From: an uncultured Eubacteriales bacterium
Lineage (GTDB): Bacteria; Bacillota; Clostridia; UBA1212; CASDQQ01
DNA: 37,595 nucleotides
Direction of reading: 5' to 3'
NCBI GenBank assembly: GCA_949282945.1
Contig: CASDQQ010000029.1
Span: 1-37,595, forward strand
Position 1 is the stretch's first letter. Each line of letters opens with the position of its first letter. The notes beneath the pieces were generated by a model. That model ran no database searches, was not told the origin of the DNA, and saw nothing but the letters and a program-made list of their open reading frames with translations. The position numbers and the translations under genes are program-made. Below, piece by piece: positions 537 through 26,628 of this stretch.

Positions 537-2264
537 ATGGTGAGATCAAATTGGGTATGCGGCAAAATAGACGAAGCAAAGCTTAAGGAGATTTCCGCCC
601 GAACGGATGTAAATCCTTTTATATTAAAAATACTTCTCTCGAGAGGAATAGAGGATATACAGGAAATAAATAAAATTTTATACGGTTGGAAAGACTTGGA
701 ATACGACCCCTTTTTGATGAGGGATATGGAAAAGGCGGTGGGCATAATAACGTCTGCTCTGGATGCCGGAAAGAAAATAACCGTGTACGGAGATTATGAC
801 TGCGACGGGATAACTTCCACAGCCGTGCTCGTAAAGTTTCTCAGGTCGGTAAACGGCAATGTAGATTACTATATTCCGGACAGACTTACCGAAGGATATG
901 GTATGTCCTTTGAGTCTGTACAATCCATATTGAACAGTGGGACGGAGCTTATCATAACCGTTGACTGCGGTATAAGATCCTTTGAAGAGACGGAACTTAT
1001 AAAAAAGCTAGGAGCGGATATTATCGTTACCGATCATCATCAATGCGGAGATACTATTCCTGCAGCGGACGCGGTCATAAATCCGCACAGGCCTGATTGT
1101 GGTTATCCTTTTAAAATGCTATCAGGGGTAGGAGTGGTATATAAGCTTATACAGGCTATATGTTCAGTAAGGAATTTAGGAAAAGTATACAAAAAATATG
1201 TTGATTTGGTTTCTTTGGGTACTATTGCCGACGTTGTAAGCATAACGGACGAGAATAAAAGTATTGTATCAGACGGTGTAGAACATATAAATTCTACTGA
1301 AAATATAGGGCTTGACATACTTGTGAAACTATCGGGAATAAATAAATATAAAATAACGGCGCAGTCCTTTGCTTTTGGGTTGTCTCCGAGAATAAATTCC
1401 GCGGGAAGAATGGGAAACGCTGAAATAGCTCTACAGCTTATTCTCGCGGAGGATAAAGATACCGCAAAAGAACTGGCTTTTCTTTTGGACGCGTCAAATA
1501 AGCAGAGACAGATAGTTGAAAACAGGGATCTTGAGAGCGCCGAGTCTATGATAGAGAAAGAAAAAAAAGCTGAAGGCCCTGTAATAGTCATAGCCTCGGA
1601 AAATTTTCATCAGGGAGTCGCAGGAATAGTAGCAGCTAAGATTGCCGAAAAATACGGGAAACCGTGCGTACTTTTATCTGTAGAAAATAAAACAATGGCC
1701 AGAGGTTCGGCCAGAAGCGTATACGGAATAAATATTTTTGAAGCGCTGAAAAAGTGCGGGGACATTTTAGAAGAATACGGAGGTCATGAGCTTGCAGCGG
1801 GAATGTCTTTGGATATCTCTAAAATAGAAGCTTTTGAAAGCAGACTTAACGACGCGGTAAAAAATGATGAAAAGGCTTTTCCTCAATTTGTAAGGAAGGC
1901 GGATCTGATCTTGCAGCCTGAGGAAATAACGGAAAAAAATGTTTTTGATCTGGAAAAACTTGAGCCGTACGGCTATGGAAATGAAATGCCTGTGTTTATG
2001 TCGGAGAACATGACTGTGGAAAGCTTAAAGCCAATGGGGGAGGATGGCAGGCATTTGAAAATATTTTTTCGAAACGGAGGAGTAAAAACGGAAGGGATTG
2101 CGTTTAATGCAAAAGAACGGGCTGAGGAAATTTTATGCGGAGAAAAGTACAGTGTGGTGTATAATCTTGAAAATAATGTTTGGAACGGAAGGGTGACTCC
2201 GCAAATGAAAATAATAGATATTTTCAGAACGGATTTGGAAAATGCAGACAGGTCGAAGGAGTGA
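537..2264 (+). CDS. recJ: Single-stranded-DNA-specific exonuclease RecJ
   Basis: RecJ is a 5'-3' exonuclease acting on single-stranded DNA in recombination and mismatch or base-excision repair. DHH-superfamily motifs are clear: YGDYDCDG at about residues 84-91, DCG at 143-145 and DHH at 166-168. The DHHA1 motif GGHELAAGM is at about 415-423. These aspartates and histidines bind the catalytic metals. About 575 residues matches the short form of the family, without the extra C-terminal domain of Bacillus RecJ. An ATG at 528 abuts the Shine-Dalgarno GAAGGAG (521-527) too closely, so I prefer the ATG at 537. The stop lies just before the start of rel, so the two are probably cotranscribed. Confidence 0.95.
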   Translation: MVRSNWVCGKIDEAKLKEISARTDVNPFILKILLSRGIEDIQEINKILYGWKDLEYDPFLMRDMEKAVGIITSALDAGKKITVYGDYDCDGITSTAVLVKFLRSVNGNVDYYIPDRLTEGYGMSFESVQSILNSGTELIITVDCGIRSFEETELIKKLGADIIVTDHHQCGDTIPAADAVINPHRPDCGYPFKMLSGVGVVYKLIQAICSVRNLGKVYKKYVDLVSLGTIADVVSITDENKSIVSDGVEHINSTENIGLDILVKLSGINKYKITAQSFAFGLSPRINSAGRMGNAEIALQLILAEDKDTAKELAFLLDASNKQRQIVENRDLESAESMIEKEKKAEGPVIVIASENFHQGVAGIVAAKIAEKYGKPCVLLSVENKTMARGSARSVYGINIFEALKKCGDILEEYGGHELAAGMSLDISKIEAFESRLNDAVKNDEKAFPQFVRKADLILQPEEITEKNVFDLEKLEPYGYGNEMPVFMSENMTVESLKPMGEDGRHLKIFFRNGGVKTEGIAFNAKERAEEILCGEKYSVVYNLENNVWNGRVTPQMKIIDIFRTDLENADRSKE

Positions 2265-2272
2265 CAGACTTT

Positions 2273-4453
2273 ATGGATGATAAGGTTACATTGCTGAAAG
2301 ACACAATTGAAGAACATAATATAAAATGCGATATAAACAGGCTCGACAAGGCGATCGTAACTGCAATGAAGGCTCACGCCAATCAGCTCAGAAAATCCGG
2401 GGAGCCGTATTTTATACATCCTCTTGAAGTAGCCAGAATGCTGGCGGAAATGGAAATGGATGAGTCGACTATAATAGCGGGACTTTTACATGACGCCGCC
2501 GAGGATACCGATTACGGCCTTGATAAAATATCCGCAGATTTCGGCGAGGAGGTCGCGCAGCTTGTAAACGGAGTAACTAAATTAGGTAAGATCCCATTTT
2601 CCTCAAAAGAGGAAGAGCAGGCTGAAAATATGAGGAAAATGTTTCTTTCTATGGCTAAAGATATAAGAGTGATTGTTATAAAGCTTTGCGACCGTCTTCA
2701 CAACATGAGAACACTTGAGTATCAAAGCCCGGAAAAACAAAAATATAAGGCTTCAGAAACGCTGCAGATATACGCTCCTCTTGCTCACAGGCTTGGTATG
2801 ATAAAGATAAAGTGGGAGCTTGAGGATCTGTGCTTTAAATATCTGGAGCCCGAAGAGTATAAGAAACTTGTAGGCCAGATAGCGGAAAAGCGGGCTGAAA
2901 GAGATGCTTTCATAAAAGATATAATAAATATCATATCTCAAAAAACAGAAGAAATGGGTATAAAATCCCAGATAGACGGGAGACCTAAACATCTTTACAG
3001 TATACACAAGAAAATGGTTCGGCAGAATAAGACTCTGGATCAGATATTTGACCTGTACGCCGTAAGGATAATTGTGGATACGGTCAAGGACTGCTATGCG
3101 GTGCTTGGTATCGTACACGAGCTTTTCAAACCTATGCCGGGAAGATTTAAAGATTATATAGCCATGCCCAAGCCGAACATGTATCAGTCTCTCCATAATA
3201 CTCTTATTGGTCCAAATGGCGTTCCGTTTGAGGTACAAATAAGAACATGGGATATGCACAGAATAGCTGAGACCGGAATAGCTTCCCACTGGAGCTATAA
3301 AGAGGGCGGAAAGACGGACGCTAAATTTGACAGTAAGATAGCGTGGATACGTCAGCTTATGGAAGAGCAGAAGGAAATGGAGAGCGCCAGCGAGTTTATG
3401 GAGCTTTTTAAGCTTGACCTTTTTACTGACGAGGTTTTTGTGTTTACTCCTAAAGGAGATGTTTCAAACCTTCCCGCCGGCTCTACTCCTGTGGATTTTG
3501 CCTACGGTATACACAGCGCCATAGGAAACAGGATGATGGGGGCCAAAATAAACGGTGAGATAAAGCCTCTTGACTATAAGCTTAAGAACGGAGATATAGT
3601 TGAGATAATAACGTCTTCAGCCGTAAACGGTCCGAGCAGGGATTGGCTCAAGTTTGTAAGGACCTCTAACGCGAAGAACAAAATAAACCATTGGTTTAAA
3701 AAGGAAATGCGCGAGGACAATATCAAAAGAGGCAGGGAAATGCTTGAGCAGCAGCTTAAAAAGTACGGTATAGCCTGGAACGATCTTTTTAAGGCCGAGT
3801 GGGTGAATCCCATATTGAAAAAATATAATTTTTCCAATATGGACGATCTGTATTCAGCCGTGGGATTTGGAAGCATATCCACAAATAAGATCATAGTCCG
3901 CCTGAGAGACGAATATGCCAAAACGGTAAAGCCTGAGGATCTTGATAAAAATTTGGCTATAGCCAAGGAGTTTGTAAGCGATAAACCTAAAAAAGAAAAA
4001 TCGGCCGCGGACGGCATAGTTGTAAAGGGCATTGACAATTGTCTTGTACGTTTGTCAAAATGCTGCAACCCGGTGCCGGGAGATTCTATAGTAGGGTATA
4101 TTACCAGAGGGAGGGGAGTATCCGTCCACAGGAGCGACTGTGTAAATATACTCTCGGGACTTGACTCGGAGGCCAGACTTATAGAGGTATCTTGGACCAA
4201 CGCGCCTAAGACGTCCTATCCGGCAGACCTTATTATAGTTGCCATTGACAGGAATATGCTTCTTATAGAAATTATGAATCAGATATCCGATTCTAATTTG
4301 ACGCTGAGGGCTATCAACGCTAAGGTCAACAAAGAGGGCAACGCTATCATAAACGTGACTCTCGATATACAGGATACGGTCCAGCTAGACAGGATAATCA
4401 ATAAACTGCTTAAGGTGTCCGGGGTTATGGAGGTTAACAGAATAAAGCACTGA
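2273..4453 (+). CDS. rel: Bifunctional (p)ppGpp synthetase/hydrolase Rel
   Basis: Rel makes and degrades the stringent-response alarmone (p)ppGpp. The 726-residue protein has the full long-RSH layout. The HD hydrolase domain shows HP at about 49-50 and HDAAED at 73-78. The synthetase domain shows RFKDYIAMPKPNMYQSLH near 291-308 and EVQIRTWDMHR after it. A TGS domain lies at about 385-448, then a cysteine-bearing zinc-finger-like domain (LSKCCNPVPGDS) and a C-terminal ACT domain. RFKD in the synthetase is the form found in bifunctional Rel enzymes. The reading frame is open back to 2180 inside recJ, but the start is set by GAAGGAG (2255-2261) about 11 bases before ATG 2273. An in-frame GTG at 2261 is less likely. 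Confidence 0.95.
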   Translation: MDDKVTLLKDTIEEHNIKCDINRLDKAIVTAMKAHANQLRKSGEPYFIHPLEVARMLAEMEMDESTIIAGLLHDAAEDTDYGLDKISADFGEEVAQLVNGVTKLGKIPFSSKEEEQAENMRKMFLSMAKDIRVIVIKLCDRLHNMRTLEYQSPEKQKYKASETLQIYAPLAHRLGMIKIKWELEDLCFKYLEPEEYKKLVGQIAEKRAERDAFIKDIINIISQKTEEMGIKSQIDGRPKHLYSIHKKMVRQNKTLDQIFDLYAVRIIVDTVKDCYAVLGIVHELFKPMPGRFKDYIAMPKPNMYQSLHNTLIGPNGVPFEVQIRTWDMHRIAETGIASHWSYKEGGKTDAKFDSKIAWIRQLMEEQKEMESASEFMELFKLDLFTDEVFVFTPKGDVSNLPAGSTPVDFAYGIHSAIGNRMMGAKINGEIKPLDYKLKNGDIVEIITSSAVNGPSRDWLKFVRTSNAKNKINHWFKKEMREDNIKRGREMLEQQLKKYGIAWNDLFKAEWVNPILKKYNFSNMDDLYSAVGFGSISTNKIIVRLRDEYAKTVKPEDLDKNLAIAKEFVSDKPKKEKSAADGIVVKGIDNCLVRLSKCCNPVPGDSIVGYITRGRGVSVHRSDCVNILSGLDSEARLIEVSWTNAPKTSYPADLIIVAIDRNMLLIEIMNQISDSNLTLRAINAKVNKEGNAIINVTLDIQDTVQLDRIINKLLKVSGVMEVNRIKH

Positions 4454-6643: not shown

Positions 6644-7135
6644 ATGAGCGTTAACGGTTGTTGCTGCGGCTGTGAAGACGAGAATTTGAAAAAGCTCAAA
6701 GCCGTTATTGAAGAAAATAAAAATGTTCGCGGTTCTTTAATAAAGGTCTTACATGAAGCGCAGCTTATTTACGGATATTTGCCTATCGAGGTGCAGAAAG
6801 TAATATCGGAAGGTTTGAATATTCCTTTGGCTGAAATTTATGGCGTTGTAACTTTCTATGCCCAGTTCTCTTTAAAGCCCAAGGGAAAATATAATATTTC
6901 GGTATGTCTTGGAACTGCTTGTTATGTTAAAGGAGCGGGATTGCTTTTAGATGAGCTTAAAAAGCTCCTGGGAGTTGACGTTGGAGATTGCACGCCGGAC
7001 GGAAAGTTTTCGCTCGAGGCTTGCAGATGTATAGGAGCCTGCGGTTTGGCCCCTGTTCTCACTATAAATGAAGATGTACACGGAAGGCTTGTTCCGGATG
7101 ATATAGCTGGGATTCTTGCCAAGTATAATGATTAA
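6644..7135 (+). CDS. hndA: Bifurcating hydrogenase, NuoE-like [2Fe-2S] subunit (HndA/HydC type)
   Basis: A thioredoxin-like [2Fe-2S] subunit of 163 residues, homologous to complex I NuoE. The four cluster cysteines are C88 and C93 (CLGTAC) and C129 and C133 (CIGAC). The helical N-terminal part, through LPIEVQKVI, is typical of NuoE. In HndABCD/HydABC complexes this subunit sits beside the flavin subunit. Just after the start the protein reads MSVNGCCCGCE, a four-cysteine cluster not needed for the NuoE fold. The gene opens the hydrogenase operon 32 bases after hemZ, with a GGGAGG ribosome binding site. No separate promoter is obvious in that gap. Confidence 0.93.
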   Translation: MSVNGCCCGCEDENLKKLKAVIEENKNVRGSLIKVLHEAQLIYGYLPIEVQKVISEGLNIPLAEIYGVVTFYAQFSLKPKGKYNISVCLGTACYVKGAGLLLDELKKLLGVDVGDCTPDGKFSLEACRCIGACGLAPVLTINEDVHGRLVPDDIAGILAKYND

Positions 7136-7156
7136 TATTTTTTAGGAGGATTTTAA

Positions 7157-7525
7157 ATGAAAACGTTAGCCGAGTTAGAAGCGATAAGAAAGAAAACTTT
7201 GGACGATATAAGCCTGAGGGCAAATAAAGACGGAGTGAGGGTTGTGGTAGGTATGGCTACCTGCGGAATAGCGGCCGGAGCAAGACCTGTTATGAACGCG
7301 TTTGTTGAAGAGCTTGCAAAGAGGAGCCTTAATAATGTTACCGTATCCATGACGGGCTGCATAGGAATGTGCAAGCTTGAGCCTATAGTAGAGGTTATAG
7401 GGACCGACGGCGCGAAGGTTACTTACGTAAATATGACTCCGGAAAAGGCAGTCAGAGTTGTTTCGGAACATCTGGTAAACGGAAAGGTTGTTTCGGAATA
7501 CACGATAGGAGCAGCCGGTAAATAA
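7157..7525 (+). CDS. hndB: Bifurcating hydrogenase, (2Fe-2S) ferredoxin-like subunit HndB
   Basis: A 122-residue thioredoxin-like ferredoxin domain protein matching the small HndB subunit of NADP-reducing hydrogenase. VGMATCGIAAGA (C36) and TGCIGMC (C68, C72) are recognisable. Only three cysteines lie in the expected cluster positions, the GIAAGA sequence taking the place of the second ligand, so whether it binds a [2Fe-2S] cluster is open. It sits 21 bases after the NuoE-like gene, with a TTAGGAGG ribosome binding site, and 35 bases before the NuoF-like gene. This is the standard operon order. Confidence 0.9.
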   Translation: MKTLAELEAIRKKTLDDISLRANKDGVRVVVGMATCGIAAGARPVMNAFVEELAKRSLNNVTVSMTGCIGMCKLEPIVEVIGTDGAKVTYVNMTPEKAVRVVSEHLVNGKVVSEYTIGAAGK

Positions 7526-7560
7526 TGCGTGAACGGTTAAATAAATAAGGAGGACTATAA

Positions 7561-9351
7561 ATGCAGGTTTACAGATCGCATGTTTTAGTTTGCGGCGGTA
7601 CAGGCTGTACTTCTTCCAATTCTGCTAAGATTATGGAAGCGTTGGAAGCTAAAATTAAAGAAAATAATATAGATAATGAAGTAAAAGTTATTAAGACCGG
7701 ATGTTTCGGACTTTGCGCCGAAGGTCCTATAGTTGTGGTTTATCCTGAAGGCTCCATGTATGTGAAAGTTAAATTAGAGGACGTTGAGGAGATCGTGTCC
7801 GAGCATCTTGTAAAAGGAAGGATCGTAAAGAGACTTTTGCTCAACGATGTGGCGGACGATGTGGAGACTTCTGTTGAAGGAGTTCAGTTCTTTGAAAAAC
7901 AGACGAGGATAGCTCTCAGAAACTGCGGAGCCATAAATCCTGAGAAGATCGATGAGTACATAGCTTATGACGGGTACAAAGCGTTAGCTACTGTTTTAAG
8001 CACAATGACGCCGGAACAGGTAATAGACACTGTTAAAGCTTCAGGCCTCAGAGGAAGGGGCGGCGCCGGATTCCCAACCGGAATGAAATGGGATTTTGCC
8101 AGAAAGTCGGTCAACGAACAGAAGTATGTTTGCTGTAATGCAGATGAAGGAGACCCGGGGGCTTTCATGGACAGAAGTATACTTGAGGGAGATCCTCACT
8201 CTGTTATTGAAGCTATGGCGATCGCCGCTTACGCGATAGGATCCAATCAGGGATATGTTTATATAAGAGCTGAGTATCCTATAGCTGTCAAGCGTTTGGA
8301 AATAGCTATAGAACAGGCCAGGGAATACGGACTCCTGGGAGAAAATATCTTCGGAACTGATTTTTCTTTTAACCTTGAAATAAGATTGGGTGCAGGAGCC
8401 TTCGTGTGCGGAGAGGAAACGGCTCTCATGACTTCTATTGAAGGAAAGAGAGGAGAACCCAGACCAAGGCCTCCGTTCCCGGCAGTCAAAGGTTTATGGG
8501 AAAAACCGACAATTTTGAATAACGTTGAGACATACGCCAATATTCCGGTTATTTTCCTTAAAGGGGCCGAGTGGTTTAAAAATATAGGTACTGAAAAGAG
8601 CAGCGGAACTAAGGTTTTTGCTGTAGGCGGAAAGATAAACAATACAGGTCTTGTAGAGATACCTATGGGTACCACTTTAAGAGAGATCGTTTACGATATC
8701 GGCGGCGGCATACCTAACGGAAAGAAATTTAAGGCCGCTCAGACAGGAGGACCTTCTGGAGGATGTATCCCTGCGGAGCTCATTGATACGCCCATAGATT
8801 ACGATTCTCTTATCCAGATTGGATCGATGATGGGATCGGGCGGACTTATCGTAATGGACGAGGATTCCTGTATGGTAGATATCGCTAAATTCTTCCTTGA
8901 ATTTACAGTTGACGAGTCCTGCGGAAAATGTCCTCCGTGTCGTATAGGAACAAAGAGGATGCTTGAGATCCTTGATAAGATAACCAAAGGAAAGGGAACT
9001 CTCGAAGACATAGACAAATTGGAGGAACTGGCTAAAACCATCAAGACTTCCGCTCTCTGCGGACTTGGTCAGACAGCTCCAAACCCTGTTTTAAGTACGC
9101 TTAGATATTACAGGCACGAATATGTAGCCCATGTAAAGGATAAAAAGTGCCCTGCCGGGGTATGTAAAGCATTGCTGCAATATAAAATTGTTGAGGATAA
9201 ATGTAAAGGATGCAGCCTCTGTTCAAGAGTATGTCCTGCAAACGCTATTTCAGGCGAAATTAAGAAACCGTTTGTTATCGATCAGGATAAGTGTTTAAAA
9301 TGCGGAGCTTGTATTGAAAAATGTAAGTTCGGCGCGATTGTCAAAGAATAG
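7561..9351 (+). CDS. hndC: Bifurcating hydrogenase, NuoF-like flavin subunit (HndC/HydB type)
   Basis: A 596-residue diaphorase-type subunit that carries FMN and binds NAD(P)H. An N-terminal thioredoxin-like [2Fe-2S] domain has C11, C16, C48 and C52. The NuoF core shows GLRGRGGAGFPTG at about 163-174 (NADH/FMN site), NADEGDPGAFMDR and GAGAFVCGEETALM. A [4Fe-4S] motif follows (SCGKCPPCRIG), and the C-terminus is a two-cluster ferredoxin domain (CKGCSLCSRVC and CLKCGACIEKC). The fusion of all these parts is typical of HndC/HydB and separates it from a simple complex I NuoF. It lies 14 bases before the catalytic subunit gene. Confidence 0.95.
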   Translation: MQVYRSHVLVCGGTGCTSSNSAKIMEALEAKIKENNIDNEVKVIKTGCFGLCAEGPIVVVYPEGSMYVKVKLEDVEEIVSEHLVKGRIVKRLLLNDVADDVETSVEGVQFFEKQTRIALRNCGAINPEKIDEYIAYDGYKALATVLSTMTPEQVIDTVKASGLRGRGGAGFPTGMKWDFARKSVNEQKYVCCNADEGDPGAFMDRSILEGDPHSVIEAMAIAAYAIGSNQGYVYIRAEYPIAVKRLEIAIEQAREYGLLGENIFGTDFSFNLEIRLGAGAFVCGEETALMTSIEGKRGEPRPRPPFPAVKGLWEKPTILNNVETYANIPVIFLKGAEWFKNIGTEKSSGTKVFAVGGKINNTGLVEIPMGTTLREIVYDIGGGIPNGKKFKAAQTGGPSGGCIPAELIDTPIDYDSLIQIGSMMGSGGLIVMDEDSCMVDIAKFFLEFTVDESCGKCPPCRIGTKRMLEILDKITKGKGTLEDIDKLEELAKTIKTSALCGLGQTAPNPVLSTLRYYRHEYVAHVKDKKCPAGVCKALLQYKIVEDKCKGCSLCSRVCPANAISGEIKKPFVIDQDKCLKCGACIEKCKFGAIVKE

Positions 9352-9365
9352 GAGGTTGGCATAAA

Positions 9366-11099
9366 ATGGTGAATATAAAAATTAACGGAATGGCAGTTCA
9401 GGCCGAGGACAATTCTACTGTCCTTGAAGCCGCTACAAAAGCCGGAATACATATTCCTACGCTCTGCCATTTAAAAGATATAAATCAGATAGGTGCCTGC
9501 AGAGTATGTCTTGTGGAAATAAAGGGAGCCAGAGCTCTTGCAGCTTCCTGTGTTATGCCGGTAAGCGAGGGAATGGAGATATTTACAAACTCTCCTGCCG
9601 TAAGACAGGCCCGCAGAAGTACGGTACAGCTTATTTTATCAAATCATAATATTGAATGTCTTACATGTCCAAGAAACGGTACCTGTGAATTGCAGACGCT
9701 TACAAGAGATTTAGGTATCGATACGGTAGGATTTGAATGTACGAATGATGGAAAGATTGACGATTTGTCGCCTTCCGTTGTAAGAGACGCGAGCAAATGT
9801 GTACTTTGCAGAAGATGTATAGCCGCCTGCGGAGAAATCCAGAAAATAGGAGCTATAAGCGTCCAGAACAGAGGATACAGGACTACTATAGGGGCTGCTT
9901 TTGGTATGCCTCTGGCAGATTCTAACTGTGTAAACTGCGGTCAGTGTATAAACGCGTGCCCTGTGGGAGCACTTTATGAAAAGGACAGTACCAAAGAGGT
10001 CTGGGATGCCATCGCCGATTCAGAAAAGCATGTTGTCATTCAGGCTGCTCCGGCTGTACGCGCTGCCCTGGGAGAAGAGTTCGGGCTGCCAATAGGAACA
10101 AACGTAACAGGAAAAATGGCTGCGGCCATGAGAAGACTTGGAGTGGATAAGGTATTTGATACCAACTTCGGGGCGGACCTTACGATCATGGAAGAGGGTA
10201 CGGAATTTATCGACAGGCTCCAAAACGGCGGAAAGCTTCCTCTCATTACTTCCTGCAGTCCCGGATGGATAAAATTCTGTGAACATAATTATCACGACTT
10301 ATTAGATAATCTTTCTTCATGTAAATCTCCTCACGAGATGGAAGGAGCCGTAATAAAGTCCTATTATGCCAAGAAAGAGGGAATTGATCCTAAAGATATT
10401 TTTGTGGTATCTGTAATGCCGTGTACGGCTAAAAAGTTTGAGGCTAAAAGAGAAGAGCTTGCCTCGTCGGGGTATCCTGATGTGGACGCGGTCATCACCA
10501 CAAGAGAGTTGGCTACAATGATCAAGTCGGCGGGTATAGAGTTTAATCTTCTCCCTGATGAGGGATTTGACGAGATGCTCGGGGATTATAGCGGAGCCGG
10601 AGTAATATTCGGAGTTACCGGAGGAGTTATGGAAGCCGCTTTACGTACGGTAGCTGAGGTTGTTACAGGGGATAAACTGGAAAATATTGATTTTACTGAG
10701 GTAAGAGGCTTCAGCGGTATAAAGGAAGCTACTGTAAACCTTAAGGGACAGGATGTGAAAGTGGCTGTGGCTCATGGTACGGCCGCGGCTCAGGAACTGC
10801 TCAATAAAGTGAGGGCCGGAGAAAAATATGATTTTATCGAGATCATGGGCTGCCCGGGAGGATGTATAAATGGCGGAGGACAGCCTCACGTATCGGCTAA
10901 GACAAGGCGTACGGTAGATTACAAAACGCTGCGTGCAAAGGCTCTTTATGATGAGGATTCTGCAAAGGTTATACGTAAATCCCATGAGAATCCTTCTATA
11001 AAGAAGCTGTATGAGGAATATTTCGAAAAGCCTGGATCTCATGTGGCTCATGAGATTCTCCATACACATTATATAGCCAGAGATAAATTCGGCAAATAA
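9366..11099 (+). CDS. hndD: Catalytic subunit of bifurcating [FeFe] hydrogenase (HndD/HydA type)
   Basis: A 577-residue [FeFe] hydrogenase that interconverts protons and H2. Domains in order: N-terminal [2Fe-2S] domain (C34, C45, C48, C62); His-ligated [4Fe-4S] segment (H94, C98, C101, C107); two [4Fe-4S] ferredoxin clusters (C145-C155 and C188-C198); the H-cluster domain. H-cluster motifs are L1 TSCSPGW (295-301), L2 MPCTAKK (C353) and L3 EIMGCPGGCINGGGQP (C496, C500). L1 carries Ser where the textbook TSCCPGW has the second Cys (see findings). With its three partner genes this should form a soluble cytoplasmic complex coupling H2 to NAD(P)H and reduced ferredoxin. A strong terminator follows. 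Confidence 0.96.
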   Translation: MVNIKINGMAVQAEDNSTVLEAATKAGIHIPTLCHLKDINQIGACRVCLVEIKGARALAASCVMPVSEGMEIFTNSPAVRQARRSTVQLILSNHNIECLTCPRNGTCELQTLTRDLGIDTVGFECTNDGKIDDLSPSVVRDASKCVLCRRCIAACGEIQKIGAISVQNRGYRTTIGAAFGMPLADSNCVNCGQCINACPVGALYEKDSTKEVWDAIADSEKHVVIQAAPAVRAALGEEFGLPIGTNVTGKMAAAMRRLGVDKVFDTNFGADLTIMEEGTEFIDRLQNGGKLPLITSCSPGWIKFCEHNYHDLLDNLSSCKSPHEMEGAVIKSYYAKKEGIDPKDIFVVSVMPCTAKKFEAKREELASSGYPDVDAVITTRELATMIKSAGIEFNLLPDEGFDEMLGDYSGAGVIFGVTGGVMEAALRTVAEVVTGDKLENIDFTEVRGFSGIKEATVNLKGQDVKVAVAHGTAAAQELLNKVRAGEKYDFIEIMGCPGGCINGGGQPHVSAKTRRTVDYKTLRAKALYDEDSAKVIRKSHENPSIKKLYEEYFEKPGSHVAHEILHTHYIARDKFGK

Positions 11100-17231: not shown

Positions 17232-18782
17232 TTATTTATGCTGTATCATCACATCACATACGCTATCAGGGGACGGCGCTTTTAATAACCCTTTTTCCTT
17301 TGCTATATCGCATATTACAGTAGCGTAAAGAGTAAGGAACATGTAATGGCATTCTCTCGATACATCATCTTTAAGATGGGCCGGAAAAAGTTTTCTGTAG
17401 CCGTTCAGATATTTTGAAACGGCGTCTGAGTACAATTCGATTGTAGATTCAAATGCGTCTTCAGCGTAGTTTTTAAAGCTTTCATACTGTGATCTTGTAA
17501 ACGCGGGCACTGTAACGGCCAACTCATTATCCTTTTTTATTACATAACCTCCCTCGATTGCAGCCGCTGTTGAATCAATATCCTTGCTCTCACTGTTCGT
17601 TAAAATATCTTCGCATACATTTATTTCGTTATCAAACATCATTTTACGATAGGAAAAACCGCCGAAATTATATGAAATATGCTGATATGTGCCTCTGCTG
17701 CCAAGATTATTAGAACACTCCCGCCCAAGACACCTGACGGACTTTTCATTGTCCTCCGTCAGATGTAAATGTGCAAAATATCTCCAACGGCAGCCATCAT
17801 AACGAACAGGAAGTTCGGGACTTTCGGTGGGGTTATACCTGGCGCTTAAATGTTCAAGAGCCATTATTCCGTAAAGATAAATTAATTCCTCTTTTGGCTT
17901 TTTAGCGTTATATATATCCAGAGTGTCTGTGTATTCTGCAAGCTGCCTCATGGAAGAAACGAATTTTTCCACCAAAGGGGCAAAAATATTTTTTGCGTTT
18001 TCTGTATACTTATTTATCTTACTTGAATAGATGATAAATTCCGTACGGTATTTCCCTTTTTGTGGTTCAGAAACCGCCTCGCGCTTTATTAAATTTGACA
18101 GGCAATCCTCAACATAATAGGCGGGAACCGCGCACAATTTTGCCAGTTCCTCAACCGTTTTTACCTGTTCATAACAATAATAGAGGATGTTTTGCGATAA
18201 TGCGTCACTGATATACACATAAGGAAAAGGACTTGTTGTACCATTGTAATTACCTTCGCCGGTTATGCGTATTGACATTTTTACAGGTCTCAATGCTGTG
18301 TAATCCATAAATTCATACTCCTTTTTAAGTTTTTTTCGAGCCTCCGAAAGGCGCCATGTTACAGTACCTTCCGGAATATTCAGCTTCTCGGAAATTTGTT
18401 TTGTAGAAAGGCCGTCATAATAGTAAAGAATGATGATATTACGATATATTGCCGAAAGCATAGCTATTTTTGTCCGTAAAGAATCATATATTTCCTCCTG
18501 TTCGCTGCTATATTGATCTTCACAGGACATATTATCCAGTATGTCATAAGAATACATCGTACGCTGTTTTCCCATATGACGCCGAAAGCTTTTAGCCATA
18601 TTGCCTGCCAGACTCCAAAGCCACGGTTCGAATTTGCTGTCATCTTTTAATTTCGGCAGTTCATGTACAACAGTAAATAATATTTCCTGTGACAGCTCAT
18701 CTGCCTCTTCCCGGGAATAGGTATGATTGACAGCATATCCGTAAACCTTTTCAATGTAGTTTTCAATTATATCGTATTTCAT
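17232..18782 (-). CDS. ECF-like sigma-70 factor with long C-terminal extension
   Basis: About 516 residues. The first 165 or so form an ECF-type sigma factor: region 2 with SREEADELSQEILFTVVHEL and FEPWLWSLAGNMAKSF, then region 4 with LYYYDGLSTKQISEKLNIPE and GTVTWRLSEARKKL as the helix-turn-helix. The remaining 350 residues are unusual for an ECF factor. A winged-helix-like part (VEELAKLCAVPAYYVEDCL) is followed by a domain I do not recognise, with several cysteines around VRCLGREC. No anti-sigma gene lies next to it, so the extension may act as the built-in regulator; this is inference. The frame is open to 18791 (GTG), but AAAGGCGG favours the ATG at 18782. Arginine codons are often CGN, as in the Bce genes. 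Confidence 0.82.
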   Translation of the reverse strand: MKYDIIENYIEKVYGYAVNHTYSREEADELSQEILFTVVHELPKLKDDSKFEPWLWSLAGNMAKSFRRHMGKQRTMYSYDILDNMSCEDQYSSEQEEIYDSLRTKIAMLSAIYRNIIILYYYDGLSTKQISEKLNIPEGTVTWRLSEARKKLKKEYEFMDYTALRPVKMSIRITGEGNYNGTTSPFPYVYISDALSQNILYYCYEQVKTVEELAKLCAVPAYYVEDCLSNLIKREAVSEPQKGKYRTEFIIYSSKINKYTENAKNIFAPLVEKFVSSMRQLAEYTDTLDIYNAKKPKEELIYLYGIMALEHLSARYNPTESPELPVRYDGCRWRYFAHLHLTEDNEKSVRCLGRECSNNLGSRGTYQHISYNFGGFSYRKMMFDNEINVCEDILTNSESKDIDSTAAAIEGGYVIKKDNELAVTVPAFTRSQYESFKNYAEDAFESTIELYSDAVSKYLNGYRKLFPAHLKDDVSRECHYMFLTLYATVICDIAKEKGLLKAPSPDSVCDVMIQHK

Positions 18783-19109
18783 CGCGTTCACCCGCCTTTC
18801 GTTTATAAAGTGTCTGGATTATCAGTTTCATTGGGTACTTTTTATATTTTTTTTAAAAAAGTAATTTTTATTCATTGTAACATATTAGTGTTCTTTTATT
18901 TTCAAACATAAGACGCAGTGTATATCAAACTGCGCAAAACATTTGTTTAAAAGCAGAATTTTTTCAAAAACTGGATTTTAAATTTATTATTTAAAGATAA
19001 ATACATTTAGTTTATGAGTAGGCGCTCAATTTAAATGGGTATTGCAAATGTGTTATGTTATGATAAAATTACTCTAAAGAATCTAATTAATTTGCGAGGA
19101 GAAAATATT
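18783..19109. other. Divergent intergenic region, sigma factor / DUF4965 hydrolase
   Basis: 327 bases without a gene. A weak minus-strand promoter for the sigma gene can be drawn (TGAAAC at 18830-18825, 17 bases, TATAAA at 18807-18802). An inverted repeat, CGCAGT (18914-18919) with ACTGCG (18929-18934) around 9 bases, lies mid-region and could be an operator or small hairpin. The plus-strand promoter for the hydrolase is listed separately. The rest is very AT-rich. Confidence 0.4.
19042..19069 (+). promoter_or_regulatory. Probable promoter of the DUF4965/hydrogenase-sensor operon
   Basis: TTGCAA at 19042-19047, a 16-base spacer and TAAAAT at 19064-19069, about 40 bases before the first start codon. 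It resembles a moderate sigma-A promoter. Confidence 0.45.
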
Positions 19110-21101
19110 ATGAAGTTAAGAGCACCATCAGTACCGCTTATTACTCATGATCCGTATTTTAGCGTGTGGTCCCCTTCTGATAAGCTTAATACGGAAACCA
19201 CAAGGCATTGGACGAATTCCAATCAGACGATGGCGGGGTTGGCCGTTATAGACGGGGAGAAATATAATTTTTGCGGAAAGTCAAATGATACGGGAAGAGG
19301 CGGAGCTACTCCTATGGAGCAGGTAAGCCTTGAAATAAAGACAATGTCTACTGAATATATTTTTGAAGCCGCAGGAATAAGTCTTACACTAAACTTTTTG
19401 TCCCCTCTTTTTTTAGATGATGTATATCTTTTATCAAGACCATGTTCTTATTTGAAATTGACAGCTAAGTCCACCGACGGTAAAGATCACGCGGTAAAAA
19501 TTATTTTTGACGTAACTGAAGAAATATGCGTAGACCGTAAAGAAGAGTATAAGACAAAAACCGACGTTATAAATATAAATGACGGCATAACGGCGGCAAA
19601 AATGGGGACTGTATATCAGCCGCATTTTAACAAAGCGGGAGATAATGTGAGAATCGATTGGGGATATTTTTATCTCTGCGGAAGGGAAAAAACCCGTATG
19701 AGTTTAGAAAAATGCAGGCTTAAAGCCAATCCTAAAGGATTCTGGCCGTCATGGAAAAGTCCCGTTGACACTGACAAACATCCGCACGACTATGTGGAGT
19801 GCAATATGGTAAGCGCTAATATCGATCTGTCAGTAAATGACCGCGGAGAAAATTCTGAATTGCTTGTATTTGTTTATGACGACGTAGTTTCTTTAGAATA
19901 CTTCCATAAAGTATTGAAATCCTGCTGGACGTATAAATGGGGCAGTATAGAAGAAGCTATATCCGCGGCGTACGCGGAGTATGACAGTTTGCGCGTCAGA
20001 GCGGAAAAGTTTGACGAAGAGCTAGTGAAAGAGTCCGTTAAAAACGGAGGAGAAAAATACGCTGAAATACTCAGGCTCGCGTACAGACAGGCGATAGCCG
20101 CTCATAAGGCCGTTTTTGATACTAACGGAGATCTGCTTTTTATATCCAAAGAATGCTTCAGTAACGGATGTGCGGCTACTGTGGATGTAAGTTACCCTTC
20201 AATACCGCTTTTCCTGAGATATAACCCTTCTCTTATAGCGGGTATGATAAGACCTATCGTGGCTTTGGCGGAAAATGACAAAATGTGGCAGTTTAATTTT
20301 GCGCCTCATGACGTGGGAACATATCCTAAAGTTAACGGACAGGTTTATGGAATGGATTCTATAGACGGACAGATGCCTGTTGAAGAGTGCGGAAATATGC
20401 TTGTAATGTTGGCGGCTATGAGCCTTTTTTCAAATGACGCTACTTACGCGCTTGAGAACAAGGAACTGTTTAGAAAGTGGGTAGAATATCTCGAGGAGTT
20501 TGGACTTGATCCTCAAAATCAACTTTGTACAGATGATTTTGCCGGACATTTGGCTCATAACTGTAATCTCGCTATTAAAGCTATAATGGGTATTGCAGGG
20601 TATTCTCTGCTCTGTAAAATGTGGGGAGAGATGGAAGAAAGTCAGCGGCTTATGGACATAGCCAGAGATATGGCGGGCAAATGGCTTGAAATGGCTTCCG
20701 ACGGCGAGGGAAAGTCTACAAGGCTTGCTTTTGATAAAGAAGGGACCTTCAGCTTGAAATACAATTCTGTCTGGGATAAAATATTTAAAACGGGATTATT
20801 TCCTGAAGAATTTTATAAGACGGAAGTTAACCAATATTTGACGGTACATATGCAGAAGTACGGTACACCTTTGGATAACAGAAAGAATTACACTAAGGCT
20901 GACTGGCTCATATGGGCAGCGGCGCTTTCAGACGATAAAAAGGATTTTGAAGCAATGATAGAACCGTTGTGGAGGGCTTATAATGATATGCCGTCCAGAG
21001 TGCCAATGTCCGACTGGTACGATCTGGATGACGCGCATCAGATGAATTTTCAGCACAGGTCTGTGGTCGGAGGATTTTTCATAAAAAATATAATGGAGTG
21101 A
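19110..21101 (+). CDS. DUF4965 / GtaA-type glutaminase-like hydrolase
   Basis: A 663-residue protein matching the glutaminase-A group. The start, PSVPLITHDPYFSVWSPSD, is the DUF4964-like opening. A beta-rich DUF5127-like domain follows, then an alpha-helical barrel-like DUF4965 region with RQAIAAHKAVFDTNGDLLF, FAPHDVGTYPKVNGQ and MPVEECGNMLVMLAAM. Fungal and Bacteroides relatives are described as glutaminases, but sequence alone does not fix the substrate. No signal peptide is visible, so it is probably cytoplasmic. The frame is open from 19035, but GCGAGGAG before ATG 19110 sets the start. Only four bases separate it from the next gene, putting it at the head of the signalling cassette; the functional reason is unknown. 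Confidence 0.82.
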   Translation: MKLRAPSVPLITHDPYFSVWSPSDKLNTETTRHWTNSNQTMAGLAVIDGEKYNFCGKSNDTGRGGATPMEQVSLEIKTMSTEYIFEAAGISLTLNFLSPLFLDDVYLLSRPCSYLKLTAKSTDGKDHAVKIIFDVTEEICVDRKEEYKTKTDVININDGITAAKMGTVYQPHFNKAGDNVRIDWGYFYLCGREKTRMSLEKCRLKANPKGFWPSWKSPVDTDKHPHDYVECNMVSANIDLSVNDRGENSELLVFVYDDVVSLEYFHKVLKSCWTYKWGSIEEAISAAYAEYDSLRVRAEKFDEELVKESVKNGGEKYAEILRLAYRQAIAAHKAVFDTNGDLLFISKECFSNGCAATVDVSYPSIPLFLRYNPSLIAGMIRPIVALAENDKMWQFNFAPHDVGTYPKVNGQVYGMDSIDGQMPVEECGNMLVMLAAMSLFSNDATYALENKELFRKWVEYLEEFGLDPQNQLCTDDFAGHLAHNCNLAIKAIMGIAGYSLLCKMWGEMEESQRLMDIARDMAGKWLEMASDGEGKSTRLAFDKEGTFSLKYNSVWDKIFKTGLFPEEFYKTEVNQYLTVHMQKYGTPLDNRKNYTKADWLIWAAALSDDKKDFEAMIEPLWRAYNDMPSRVPMSDWYDLDDAHQMNFQHRSVVGGFFIKNIME

Positions 21102-21105
21102 AACT

Positions 21106-21462
21106 ATGAAAGTAAAAGATATTATCAAAATACTTGACGCCAAACTTATTACGGGAGAAGAAAATCTTGAACTGGATATCGTGTCCGGATGCGGTGCGGA
21201 TTTAATGAGCGACGTTATGGCTTATGTTAAGGAAAGCGTTATTCTTTTGACGGGACTTACTAACACTCAGGTTATAAGGACTGCGGAAATGATGGATATA
21301 CAGGTCATATGCTTTGTCCGCGGAAAATGTCCGAATGAGGATGTTATAAATCTGGCAAAGGAAAGAGGTATAACCATCCTGACTACCAAAGAAACTCTTT
21401 TTATATCCTGCGGAAAGCTGTACAGCGCGGGGATAGTCGGGAGAGGTGTCTGGAATGAGTGA
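21106..21462 (+). CDS. DRTGG-domain protein (first copy)
   Basis: A 118-residue single-domain protein. It aligns along its whole length with the second DRTGG protein at 23178: an N-terminal VKDIIKILDAKLITG, a glycine-aspartate segment (VSGCGADLMSDVMAYVKE), a TNTQVIRTAEMMDIQVI helix-strand unit and a C-terminal TILTTKETLFISCGKL. DRTGG domains occur beside CBS and other ligand-sensing domains, and their ligand is generally unknown. The canonical DRTGG pentapeptide is degenerate here. Its stop overlaps the next start (ATGAGTGA), so it is coupled to the ATPase gene. Confidence 0.8.
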   Translation: MKVKDIIKILDAKLITGEENLELDIVSGCGADLMSDVMAYVKESVILLTGLTNTQVIRTAEMMDIQVICFVRGKCPNEDVINLAKERGITILTTKETLFISCGKLYSAGIVGRGVWNE

Positions 21463-21883
21463 TAATATCATAAGGCTTCATTACGATATAGATGCGGATG
21501 ATTTTTCTTCCGCGGGATTAGCCTCCAGCGGTACGAAAAGGATGCTGAACCAACTGGGGTTTAATCCGGCGATAGTAAAAAAAGTGGCTATTTCCATGTA
21601 TGAGGCAGAAATAAACGCGGTCATACATGCCGACGGAGGCTGCGCAGATGTGGAGATAACTCCTGAAAAAATTGTTGTAGTCATAAGCGATAAAGGGCCG
21701 GGCATTCCTGATATAGAACAAGCTATGCAGGCCGGTTGGTCTACTGCTACCAATGAAATAAGGGAACAGGGATTCGGAGCCGGAATGGGGCTTCCAAATA
21801 TGAAAAGATATACAGATGATATGAAGATAGAAACGGAGTTGGGAGTAGGGACCAAAGTGACGCTGATAATAAATGTTAATTAG
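21455..21883 (+). CDS. Anti-sigma-factor-like HATPase (RsbW/SpoIIAB type)
   Basis: About 142 residues of GHKL/HATPase fold. The N box reads YEAEINAVIHA, G1 is SDKGPGIPD and G2 is GFGAGMGLPNMKR, so ATP binding looks intact. Proteins this size are serine kinases that inhibit sigma factors or phosphorylate STAS-domain antagonists. No STAS partner lies in the window. The nearest sigma gene is the extended ECF factor at 17232-18782, but pairing them is speculation. A GTG at 21446 also opens the frame; ATG 21455 has correct spacing from GAGAGG at 21441-21446. It overlaps the first DRTGG gene by 8 bases. Confidence 0.85.
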   Translation: MSDNIIRLHYDIDADDFSSAGLASSGTKRMLNQLGFNPAIVKKVAISMYEAEINAVIHADGGCADVEITPEKIVVVISDKGPGIPDIEQAMQAGWSTATNEIREQGFGAGMGLPNMKRYTDDMKIETELGVGTKVTLIINVN

Positions 21884-21897
21884 GAGCTAAGATTGTT

Positions 21898-23181
21898 ATG
21901 AAAGGGTATTCTCATTCTATACGGCTTGAGGCGGATAAATGCCGCGGATGTACTAATTGCATAAAGACCTGTCCTACGGAAGCCATAAGGGTAAGAGGCG
22001 GAAAGGCAAAAATTATCGACAACAGATGTATAGACTGCGGCGAGTGTATACGGGTATGCCCTCATCAGGCTAAAAAAGCAAATACTGATGAGTTTGAGAC
22101 TATTTTTAACTACAAATATAAAATAGCGCTTCCGGCTCCCAGTTTATACGCGCAGTTTTCTAAAATATATACGAGAGGACAGATACTTGCGGCTTTAAAG
22201 CTGCTTGGATTTGATTATGTATATGAGGTCGCCAGAGCCGCGGAGCTTATAACAGCCGAAACTAAAGAATACCTTAAAAGAAAGGACATTATAAGACCTG
22301 TTATTTCATCGGCATGCCCCGTGGTGGTAAGGCTCATAAGGCTTAAGTATCCGAGCCTTATCCCCAATATTTCCCAAATAGAATCTCCTATGGAAGCTGC
22401 GGCTGAAATAGCGAGAAACGAGTTTGCGGCAAAGACGGGAGCCAGGCCTGAGGAAATAGGAATATTTTTTATATCTCCATGCGCAGCTAAGCATACTGCG
22501 GCTAAAATGCCTATAGGAAACTTAAAGTCAAATGTGGACGGAGTTATAGCTATAAAATCTATTTATGTTAAGCTTTTAAAATTGCTCTCGGATTCCGAAG
22601 AGGCGGATTTTAAGGTTATGGCAAGTAAATACGGTGTGCGTTGGGCCAACAGCGGAGGAGAAAGTCTCGCTCTTGAAACGGATAATTTTATTGCTGTTGA
22701 CGGAATACATAATGTGGCCAAAATACTTGAAGAGATAGAGGATGATAAAATAAACGATGTAGATTTCATCGAGGCATTAGCCTGTAACGGAGGCTGTCTC
22801 GGAGGTCCTCTGTGTATGGAAAATGTATATTCTGCCAAAGCGATATTTAAGAAAGTACTTGAAAAGGATATATCTCAAAGCGCTCTGCCGTATACTGACG
22901 AAAGATTTAACCCTATGCACGACGCGGAAATAGAGTATGTAGACGCTTATTCACTTGACAAGGATATGTACGCGGCAATAAATAAAATGGCTGAGATGAA
23001 TAGGATCGTAGCAGAACTTCCGGGCCTTGACTGCGGAGCCTGCGGTGCTCCCAACTGCCGCGCGCTGGCCGAGGATATCATAAGAGGAGAAGCTTCTGAG
23101 AGCGACTGTATTATAAAGCTCAAAGAGGAATATAAAAAATTAAAGAAAAAAATTGGTGCTGAGAAAGGAAATGAAAAATGA
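21898..23181 (+). CDS. Sensor-type [FeFe]-hydrogenase-like iron-sulfur protein
   Basis: 427 residues in three parts. An N-terminal two-cluster ferredoxin domain has C15, C18, C21, C25 and C44, C47, C50, C54. The hydrogenase large-subunit domain has L1 SSACPVV (C140), L2 SPCAAKH (C195) and L3 EALACNGGCLGGP (C296, C300), so all four H-cluster cysteine ligands are kept. The proton-shuttle cysteine before the L1 ligand is Ala, as in regulatory HydS-type hydrogenases. A C-terminal [4Fe-4S] domain has C379, C382, C387 and C404. There is no PAS domain. Slow catalysis and a sensing role are therefore likelier than bulk H2 turnover; this is inference from the family. The stop overlaps the next start by four bases (ATGA). 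Confidence 0.88.
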   Translation: MKGYSHSIRLEADKCRGCTNCIKTCPTEAIRVRGGKAKIIDNRCIDCGECIRVCPHQAKKANTDEFETIFNYKYKIALPAPSLYAQFSKIYTRGQILAALKLLGFDYVYEVARAAELITAETKEYLKRKDIIRPVISSACPVVVRLIRLKYPSLIPNISQIESPMEAAAEIARNEFAAKTGARPEEIGIFFISPCAAKHTAAKMPIGNLKSNVDGVIAIKSIYVKLLKLLSDSEEADFKVMASKYGVRWANSGGESLALETDNFIAVDGIHNVAKILEEIEDDKINDVDFIEALACNGGCLGGPLCMENVYSAKAIFKKVLEKDISQSALPYTDERFNPMHDAEIEYVDAYSLDKDMYAAINKMAEMNRIVAELPGLDCGACGAPNCRALAEDIIRGEASESDCIIKLKEEYKKLKKKIGAEKGNEK

Positions 23182-23534
23182 CGGTAGCCGAGATTGCGCG
23201 TGATTTGGAAATGGATGTTGTGTCCGGAGCGGCGCTGACAGACAGACAGATAGGAGGAGTATATGTGGGAGATCTGCTTAGTTGGGTCATGTCCCATGCC
23301 AAAGACGATGATCTTTGGATAACGGTGCTTACTAATCTGAATACGGTGGCGGTGGCTGTTTTATCAAATGTGGCCTGCGTTGTAATACCGGAGGGAATAG
23401 AGGTAGAAGAGGCTACCGCCAGAAAAGCTGAAACTGAAAACGTAATAATACTCAGGTCGAAAATGACGGCCTATGAAATTTGTATAAAAGTTTATGAAAA
23501 GTTAAAAAATCAGAATGGATATGATCGTAATTGA
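23178..23534 (+). CDS. DRTGG-domain protein (second copy)
   Basis: 118 residues, the closer of the two copies to the standard domain: LTDRQIGGVYVGDLLSWVMS, then DDLWITVLTNLNTVAVAVL, IPEGIEVEEATARKAETE and the C-terminal AYEICIKVYEKL. The segment TDRQIGG corresponds to the D-R-T-G-G region. It is coupled to the hydrogenase-like gene (ATGA overlap) and overlaps the PHP gene at ATTGA. Two copies flanking the hydrogenase-like gene suggest a pair or heterodimer that relays the redox signal; the ligand is unknown. Confidence 0.85.
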   Translation: MTVAEIARDLEMDVVSGAALTDRQIGGVYVGDLLSWVMSHAKDDDLWITVLTNLNTVAVAVLSNVACVVIPEGIEVEEATARKAETENVIILRSKMTAYEICIKVYEKLKNQNGYDRN

Positions 23535-24253
23535 AATACGCTGTTGATCTGCATATGCACTCTTGTCTTTCACCTTGCGGCGATAACGACATGACCCCTA
23601 ATAATATTGTAAATATGGCATTGATCAAAGGCCTTGATATTATTGCGGTGACCGATCACAACACCGCTGAAAATCTTGAAGCCGTTTTGGAATGCGCAAA
23701 AGAAAACGGACTTACAGTAATTCCAGGCATAGAAGTGGAAACTGCGGAGGAGGCGCATATAGTGTGCCTTTTTAGAAAAGTTGAGGATGCGTATAAATTG
23801 CAGGAAATTATATATGACGCTCTTCCTCCTTTGAAAAACAGAGCAGAGATATTCGGAAATCAATATATTTGCGACAAAAACGACAATGTAATCGGAGAAC
23901 TTGCCCAAATGCTGATAACCGCCACTTCCATAAGTACCGACGATATTTTCGATTTGGTGGAAGGCTTGGGGGGAGTAGCCTATCCGGCTCATGTCGATAG
24001 GGATTCATACAGTGTTTTATCCAACTTAGGCTTTGTACCGGAGGCTTATAAAGGAAAGTACCTGGAGCTTTCACGAAACTGTAACTTCCAGTATTTTTCA
24101 GACCAGGCCGACGAGCTTACAAACGCCGGATATCATTTTTTCAGGGCGTCGGACGCCCATTATCTCTGGGATATATTTGAACGTGAAAATTTTATGGAGC
24201 TAAAAGAAAAAAGTGTGGACGCGGTCATTGATAAACTTTTGGCCAGGCGCTGA
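23531..24253 (+). CDS. PHP-domain phosphoesterase
   Basis: A 240-residue metal-dependent phosphoesterase of the PHP superfamily. Metal ligands are visible in DLHMHSCLSPCGDND (H8, H10), AVTDHNTAEN, IPGIEVET, YPAHVDR and the C-terminal SDAHYLWD. Relatives include nucleotide phosphatases and 5'-3' exoribonucleases (RNase AM), but this branch is mainly known from [FeFe]-hydrogenase-linked clusters and its substrate is unknown. The start must be TTG at 23531: an in-frame stop sits immediately upstream and the next ATG is inside the HMH motif. The 3' end overlaps the convergent kinase gene by 29 bases. Confidence 0.87.
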   Translation: MKYAVDLHMHSCLSPCGDNDMTPNNIVNMALIKGLDIIAVTDHNTAENLEAVLECAKENGLTVIPGIEVETAEEAHIVCLFRKVEDAYKLQEIIYDALPPLKNRAEIFGNQYICDKNDNVIGELAQMLITATSISTDDIFDLVEGLGGVAYPAHVDRDSYSVLSNLGFVPEAYKGKYLELSRNCNFQYFSDQADELTNAGYHFFRASDAHYLWDIFERENFMELKEKSVDAVIDKLLARR

Positions 24254-25514: not shown

Positions 25515-26628
25515 GTGATAGAGTTAGAGCAGTATAAAATTGAAATATCCGCTTTGCAGAAAGATCTTACAGATTTGAGGGATTCACTTTGACATAGCGG
25601 GCCTTGAAAATCAGATAGAGGAGCTGGATAATAAGGCTACTGAGCCGGATTTCTGGAATGATCAGGAAAATTCTCAAAAGATATTGCAGAAAACGAAGGC
25701 TTTAAAAAATAAATTGGAAAAATTTCGTAACCTTGAGACTCAGTACGACGAGCTCATGCTGCTTATAGAGTTGGGTACCGAGGAAAACGACCAGTCTGTG
25801 GTAGAGGAAGTTGAACGCGGGCTTTTAAAGTATAAAGAGGATTATTCTACTTTAAAATTAGAGACTCTTTTAAGAGGTCCATATGACAAGAATAATGCTA
25901 TACTCACTATACACGCGGGCTCAGGCGGAACGGAGGCGCAGGATTGGGCGCAGATGGTATTGAGAATGTATACCAGGTGGGGTGAAAAGAAAGAATACGA
26001 GGTAAAAATACTGGACATACTTGACGGCGATGAGGCGGGAATAAAGAGTGCTACAGTACAGTTTACCGGAGATAACGCTTACGGGTTTTTACGCAGTGAA
26101 CACGGGGTGCACAGACTTGTCAGAATATCCCCGTTCGACGCGGCGGGGAGAAGGCATACCTCCTTCTGCTCGGTAGAAGTTATGCCTGAAATAAATGAAG
26201 ATATAGAAATAGAAATAAAACCGGACGATTTGAAAATGGATGTATACAGAGCTAGCGGAGCCGGAGGACAGCACATAAATAAAACATCTTCCGCCGTACG
26301 CCTTACTCACATACCTACGGGAATCGTAGTAGCGTGCCAGAATGAAAGATCTCAGTTCCAGAATAAGGAAACTGCTCTCAAAATGCTGAAATCAAAGCTT
26401 TTTGAGTTAAAGGAAAGGGAGAATAAGGATAAGATAGAAGACCTTAAGGGGGTCCAGCTTGAAATTACATGGGGAAGCCAGATAAGATCCTATGTATTTT
26501 GTCCTTATACCCTTGTAAAGGATCATAGGACCAACTATGAGGAGGGAACGGTAGATAAAGTAATGGACGGCAATATAGACGGATTTATAAATTCCTATTT
26601 GATAGACGAGTTTAATAAGTCTAAGTAA
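25515..26628 (+). CDS. prfB: Peptide chain release factor 2, programmed +1 frameshift
   Basis: RF2 releases peptides at UGA and UAA. The gene has two reading frames: GTG at 25515 runs 25 codons to CTT TGA at 25587-25592, and translation continues in the +1 frame from GAC at 25591 to 26628. The product is 370 residues, normal for RF2. The shift site CTTTGAC is preceded four bases upstream by the Shine-Dalgarno-like GAGGGA (25577-25582), the classic RF2 autoregulation signal: when RF2 is scarce the ribosome stalls on UGA and slips. SPFD (stop-codon tripeptide region) and GAGGQH (catalytic GGQ) are present. The start is GTG, since the upstream ATG at 25506 reaches TAA after two codons. It heads the operon to 29182. 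Confidence 0.96.

Follow-up and report, generated by a model that had tools for sequence, protein, structure and literature searches.

What does an [FeFe]-hydrogenase-like protein do when its gene is packed among genes for two small DRTGG-domain proteins, a GHKL ATPase and a PHP-family phosphoesterase? The question is raised by a five-gene cassette at positions 21106-24253 of contig CASDQQ010000029.1 (assembly GCA_949282945.1), from an uncultured Eubacteriales bacterium. The window, which is the whole stretch of DNA analysed, is 37,595 nt long. A first-pass annotation, made from the letters alone, had proposed a hydrogen- or redox-signalling cassette with an anti-sigma-type output. As described below, the hydrogenase-like protein (HydS) is assigned by sequence to the group D [FeFe] hydrogenases, and the cassette is nearly invariant across genomes.

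The cassette and its conservation

The five genes of the cassette are as follows.

21106..21462, forward strand: D1, the first DRTGG-domain protein, 118 aa (Pfam DRTGG, AlphaFold2 fold match, D1-K fusions in other loci)
21455..21883, forward strand: K, a GHKL ATPase and putative Ser-Thr kinase, 142 aa (HATPase_c_2, nearest structures SpoIIAB/RsbW, invariant motifs)
21898..23181, forward strand: HydS, a group D [FeFe] hydrogenase by sequence, 427 aa (Pfam, structure matches, alignment, tree, TamHydS residues in PMC10407848 and PMC11803613)
23178..23534, forward strand: D2, the second DRTGG-domain protein, 118 aa (Pfam DRTGG; joined to the C-terminal end of HydS in two genera)
23531..24253, forward strand: PHP, a PHP-family metal-dependent phosphoesterase, 240 aa, with a TTG start at 23531 (Pfam PHP, invariant residues, AlphaFold2 model)

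The genes overlap by 8 nt (D1/K), 4 nt (HydS/D2) and 4 nt (D2/PHP), and a gap of 14 nt separates K from HydS. The start of K was placed at the ATG at 21455; a GTG at 21446 is a possible alternative. The Pfam E-values were 3.5e-7 (D1) and 1.1e-6 (D2) for DRTGG, 1.7e-12 for HATPase_c_2, 1.5e-41 for Fe_hyd_lg_C and 1e-11 for PHP. The open reading frames, domains and overlaps that the first-pass annotation had described were all borne out.

HydS-positive genomes were defined by an orthologue at E<=1e-90. The class sample comprised 196 genomes, of which 99 were positive and 97 negative; in the phylum sample, the HydS family profile matched 50 of 149 genomes at E<=1e-70. Class loci were surveyed by a six-frame profile search. 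The full order D1-K-HydS-D2-PHP was complete in 78/81 class loci, counting those with contigs that reach far enough. It was also complete in 55/61 loci of a second set, from another collection of named genomes, in which some organisms may overlap the first set. The five genes were co-directional in all complete loci (153/153). A PHP orthologue was present in 96/99 HydS-positive genomes and 0/97 HydS-negative genomes (Fisher 3e-53). The gene order of the cassette is far from chance. The cassette is widespread, and there is nothing unusual about the copy in the window. That similar neighbourhoods recur in Clostridia had been a guess; the recurrence is much stronger than guessed, and the DRTGG-HATPase-PHP order is near-invariant.

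HydS and its active site

HydS contains two N-terminal [4Fe-4S] clusters, an H-domain and a C-terminal Cx2Cx4Cx16C cluster; Pfam also matched Fer4 and a C-terminal FeS domain. Structure comparison showed that solved [FeFe] hydrogenases match it across the N-terminal clusters and the H-domain. The four H-cluster cysteines (C140, C195, C296, and C300) are invariant in 180 homologues, and position 139 is Ala in the window and in 158/180 homologues. The residues A139, S193, and L294 replace C299, M353, and M497 of group A (CpI numbering), and match A137, S191, and L291 of TamHydS (PMC11803613). Likewise, E255-E292-S252-D268 corresponds to the group D proton path E252-E289-S249-D265 of TamHydS (PMC10407848); E292 is invariant in all 180 homologues. 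No PAS domain was found in the window HydS by Pfam, which does show one in the group C homologue of the same genome. The phylogenetic tree split 19 HydS from 11 HydA sequences at 100/100; TamHydS was not in this tree, and the group C protein of the source genome formed a long branch.

With every checkable published sequence signature present, HydS is, at the level of sequence, a group D (M2e) [FeFe] hydrogenase of the TamHydS class. TamHydS has a slow turnover (PMC11803613), and its catalysis is slow in both directions (PMC8163306); HydS is probably a slow, sensory hydrogenase as well. The first-pass annotation had numbered the four cysteines correctly and had noted the Ala at the proton-shuttle position and the missing PAS domain. 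Its sensory-type assignment is supported. A subclade in families f23 and f25 (e.g. loci L082, L084, L086, L089, L090, and L091) has E255Q, with Ala139 changed to Asp or Asn and all cysteines kept.

The accompanying proteins and the output

D1 and D2 scored 30.4 and 28.9 bits against the DRTGG cut-off of 25.2 bits. The AlphaFold2 model of D1 (predicted local distance difference test, pLDDT, 89) has a predicted fold matching the DRTGG protein 2ioj (template modelling, TM, score 0.80). The model is also similar to the DRTGG region of a CBS-pyrophosphatase (3l2b) and the N-terminal region of HPr kinase (1ko7). Asp32, Ser35, and Thr49 are nearly invariant and common to both proteins.

The PHP protein has eight invariant metal-binding positions (H8, H10, H43, E68, H76, H154, D208, and H210). 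The PHP family usually has an Asp at the first-loop metal position, where an invariant C16 appears here. The folds closest to its AlphaFold2 model (pLDDT 97) are those of EndoQ, RNase AM, and an amidohydrolase that binds nucleotides. A role as a protein tyrosine phosphatase was considered, as CpsB/YwqE are PHP enzymes, and set aside, since the fold search on the model favours nucleotide/nucleic-acid PHP enzymes. A defence-system reading was also rejected; PADLOC gave just a weak PHP-domain match.

The nearest solved structures to K are SpoIIAB and RsbW. The motifs E50, N54, D79xGPGI, and GFGAGMGLPN are invariant in 173 homologues; E50 and N54 align with the catalytic Glu/Asn of SpoIIAB, and all the GHKL ATP motifs are kept. 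This resemblance speaks for the anti-sigma output of the first-pass annotation, in which K, as an RsbW-type kinase, would free a sigma factor via a STAS antagonist. However, the SpoIIAB model, with a cut-off of 135 bits, gave K 57 bits, and the RsbW model, with a cut-off of 145, gave it 26; both scores lie far under the cut-offs. No STAS or sigma family was recurrent among the cassette neighbours across the surveyed loci, although a partner of this kind had been suggested. The sole STAS protein found in the draft source genome (84% complete) is SpoIIAA, in a spoIIAA-spoIIAB-sigF operon with its own SpoIIAB and sigma-F. Moreover, the fusion partner of K is DRTGG, not STAS. The anti-sigma output did not hold up, and is considered very unlikely.

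Gene fusions and predicted contacts

Three kinds of in-frame fusion were identified. D1-K fusions occur in three loci, L189 (Tepidanaerobacter sp. GT38), L224, and L226. D2 is fused to the C-terminus of HydS in L223 and L228, which belong to two genera. A fusion of PHP with K2, a second ATPase found within most HydABC operons, occurs in one locus, L246. One fusion of each kind (L224, L223, and L246) was checked with independent Pfam models. Double matches of HydD and HydS inside HydB were not accepted as fusions, as they reflect shared ferredoxin domains.

Because fusion partners usually interact, these sequences suggest direct contacts for HydS-D2, D1-K, and PHP-K2, and a chain HydS-D2-D1-K. 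The link between D1 and D2 may be proposed from their common fold. In a coevolution analysis by mutual information with average product correction (APC), which was underpowered at 149 loci, the strongest signal was D1-K.

The same data bear on whether HydS could be just a low-activity metabolic hydrogenase with incidental neighbours. The slow catalysis of TamHydS in both directions (PMC8163306) would fit such a role. The near-invariant cassette, the reciprocal presence of PHP and the fusions disfavour it, and this reading is scarcely credible.

Link to HydABC

The window also carries an operon for the electron-bifurcating hydrogenase HydABC, which is a probable functional partner of the cassette. 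HydCDBA (6644-11099) sits 10 kb upstream of the cassette.

6644..7135, forward strand: HydC (NuoE-like) of the HydABC operon
7157..7525, forward strand: HydD (2Fe-2S thioredoxin-like)
7561..9351, forward strand: HydB (NuoF-like, FMN/NADH)
9366..11099, forward strand: HydA, the group A catalytic [FeFe] hydrogenase subunit

HydABC adjoins the cassette in 50 of the 74 assessable class contexts, about two-thirds. The other contexts were solitary cassettes (11), pyrK/pyrD (6), K2 alone (5), and rnf (2). A high-scoring HydB (at least 900 bits, a threshold set by us) was present in 92/99 HydS-positive and 31/97 HydS-negative genomes (Fisher 5e-20). K2 is absent from the window HydCDBA; a K2 homologue is on contig C21 of this genome (42% identity). 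In one family, pyrK and pyrD adjoin the cassette instead of HydABC (L037, L038, L043, L047, L117, L119, L123, L124, and L143), and rnf genes adjoin it in L066, L068, and L096.

The place of K2 raises the possibility of an assembly or quality-control module, in which K and K2 would build, load or protect HydABC, and HydS would be a scaffold or test enzyme. GHKL ATPases can act as chaperones, and K2 is part of most HydABC operons, with one instance of fusion to PHP. However, cassettes also occur without an adjacent HydABC, the low activity and altered active site of HydS point to sensing, and K keeps the kinase Glu. Such a module is unlikely.

Several other features of the window were recorded. 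A gene for a GtaA-type glutaminase (19035-21101, forward strand) ends 4 nt upstream of D1, which probably has its ribosome site within the 3' end of that gene. The two are probably co-transcribed in the window; the glutaminase gene was not among the recurrent cassette neighbours in the surveyed loci. Promoter and terminator scans found terminators at the shuffled rate and promoter-like sites in moderate excess, with no clear candidate. The prfB gene (25560-26628, forward strand) shows the programmed frameshift motif usual for this gene (AGGG...CTTTGAC, near 25577-25593); therefore the listed prfB open reading frame begins inside the gene. Two extracytoplasmic function (ECF)-sigma-like proteins of ~520 aa with long C-terminal regions are encoded at 17232-18791 of the window (reverse strand) and at 2177-3742 of locus L215 (reverse strand).

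The nature of the signal

H2 is likely as the signal, but unproven. The maturases HydE, HydF, and HydG bear on this point. HydF was under the cut-off in 20/99 HydS-positive genomes, and 18 of these were also without HydG and HydE over the cut-off. Fifteen of the 18 are near-complete, one being a single contig. The 18 are G011, G015, G020, G056, G063, G083, G098, G101, G111, G128, G134, G140, G157, G163, and G172, together with G000, G023, and G084. The source genome is included, as none of the three maturases was found in this 84%-complete draft. With a second HydG query from G116, of the same genus as two of the 18, HydG was again not found in 13 of them. The first-pass annotation had missed these cassettes without detectable maturases, as well as the fusions, the HydCDBA genes in the window and the link with HydABC in other genomes.

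An alternative is that, in at least some members of the family, HydS senses ferredoxin or Fe-S redox status and not H2, and that the H-domain could work with [4Fe-4S] clusters only. The 18 genomes favour this alternative, and in G140 and G083 HydS is the only PF02906 protein. In six of the 18, E255Q is accompanied by Asp or Asn at 139, and in TamHydS the substitutions E252V/D abolish H2 oxidation (PMC10407848). In some loci the cassette lies next to pyrK/pyrD or rnf and not HydABC. On the other hand, the four H-cluster cysteines and E292 are kept in 180/180 homologues, those of all the maturase-less genomes included. Most of these genomes still carry a group A HydA; the lack of maturases may therefore reflect an unknown maturation or missed genes. 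TamHydS can also be loaded with a synthetic [2Fe] cofactor, and it does respond to H2 (PMC8163306, PMC13104023). Sensing of ferredoxin or redox status in place of H2 is rather doubtful, with some real weight.

Proposed mechanism

The cassette might be a dedicated redox-sensing unit, most likely for H2 and/or reduced ferredoxin, attached to HydABC. As a whole mechanism, this reading has an even chance of being right. The input would be HydS, as a slow group D hydrogenase. In one report cited in PMC13104023, the secondary structure of TamHydS is said to change with H2. A redox-dependent shape change in HydS might be passed to its partner D2; D2 would pair with D1, and D1 would set the ATP-bound or kinase state of K. 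The two DRTGG domains could thus act as a coupling adaptor linking the sensor to the ATPase. K, with K2 usually in or near the HydABC operon, may modify or remodel a target, most simply HydABC or its controlling protein. PHP may hydrolyse a phosphoester or nucleotide and so reset the system. The identity of HydS, the invariant clusters, the near-invariant neighbours and the fusions are read from the sequences; we infer the signal steps beyond these. A more specific form is that a group D hydrogenase controls a GHKL kinase via a DRTGG heterodimer, that PHP and the second GHKL ATPase close the loop, and that the control is post-translational on HydABC and not through a sigma factor. This would be a new type of H2/redox signalling, and is put forward tentatively, as a possibility somewhat short of an even chance.

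Several points weigh against this mechanism. Two loci (L150 and L173) carry K and HydS only, and other loci are without PHP or D2. No D1-D2 coevolution was above the threshold in the underpowered set of 149 loci. Because 18 HydS-positive genomes are without HydE, HydF, and HydG over the cut-off, it is not certain that all of the family carry an intact H-cluster. The role of PHP in the loop is a guess, since the protein resembles nucleotide/nucleic-acid enzymes more than PHP tyrosine phosphatases. Experimental work so far concerns HydS alone among the cassette components.

Since 2020, biochemical studies have treated group D hydrogenases as putative H2 sensors, and the cassette and its fusions supply a short, concrete list of partners. 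The predicted contacts (HydS-D2, D1-K, and PHP-K2) are testable with purified proteins of the kind already used in the field. If true, the mechanism would explain how H2 production could be adjusted to H2 pressure or redox state in many fermenting bacteria, and it would be relevant to fermentation in the gut and rumen, to syntrophy and to strains for biofuels.

Comparison with known systems

No paper joining a hydrogenase with DRTGG in a signalling sense was found in the open-access literature, which was the scope of the search. A worked-out pathway for the cluster was not found there either, as the first-pass annotation had supposed. The literature searched does not appear to describe the cassette as a signalling unit whose members are near-fixed and whose contacts are predicted by fusions. 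Most of it can be seen in one published gene list, the Halanaerobium hydrogeniformans operon Halsa_1862-1871 (PMC4237134, 2014). This list comprises HydA, HydB, a ferredoxin-like protein, a histidine kinase, NuoE, PHP, an Fe-S hydrogenase, an anti-sigma-type kinase and an unnamed open reading frame; it was given without interpretation, conservation, DRTGG or signalling.

K shares with SpoIIAB/RsbW the GHKL fold, the catalytic Glu and Asn and the ATP motifs; it differs in its scores under the family cut-offs, and is associated with DRTGG instead of a STAS or sigma partner. The modelled fold of D1 is like those of the CBS-pyrophosphatase DRTGG and HPr kinase/phosphatase N-terminal regions, whereas the cassette DRTGG proteins are small and stand-alone, with two non-identical copies per cassette.

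The group C systems with HydS/HfsB in Ruminococcus albus and Thermoanaerobacterium (PMC5707799, PMC11837493) also place a putative sensory hydrogenase with phospho-signalling proteins beside catalytic hydrogenases; theirs have a PAS domain and a SpoIIE/PP2C-type phosphatase. The source genome has an hfs-type set of this kind, separate from the cassette, on contig C150 (L215, 8759-17503, reverse strand), with rex, adhE, a phosphotransferase-like gene, a group C PAS-HydS, a SpoIIE/PP2C phosphatase and a second HydA. The genome therefore carries both group C and group D putative sensors.

The closest known system is TamHydS, whose gene is flanked by a histidine-kinase-like ATPase and an AraC regulator, upstream of HydABC (PMC8163306, 2020). 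H2 does not reduce its C-terminal cluster, and the partners of TamHydS were described as yet to be identified (PMC13104023, 2026). HydS shares with it the Ala/Ser/Leu at C299/M353/M497, the proton path, the C-terminal Cx2Cx4Cx16C, the lack of PAS, the ATPase neighbour and the linkage to HydABC. The papers on TamHydS give the ATPase and AraC neighbours only, whereas the DRTGG pair and PHP as near-fixed members, and the fusions, come from the present analysis.

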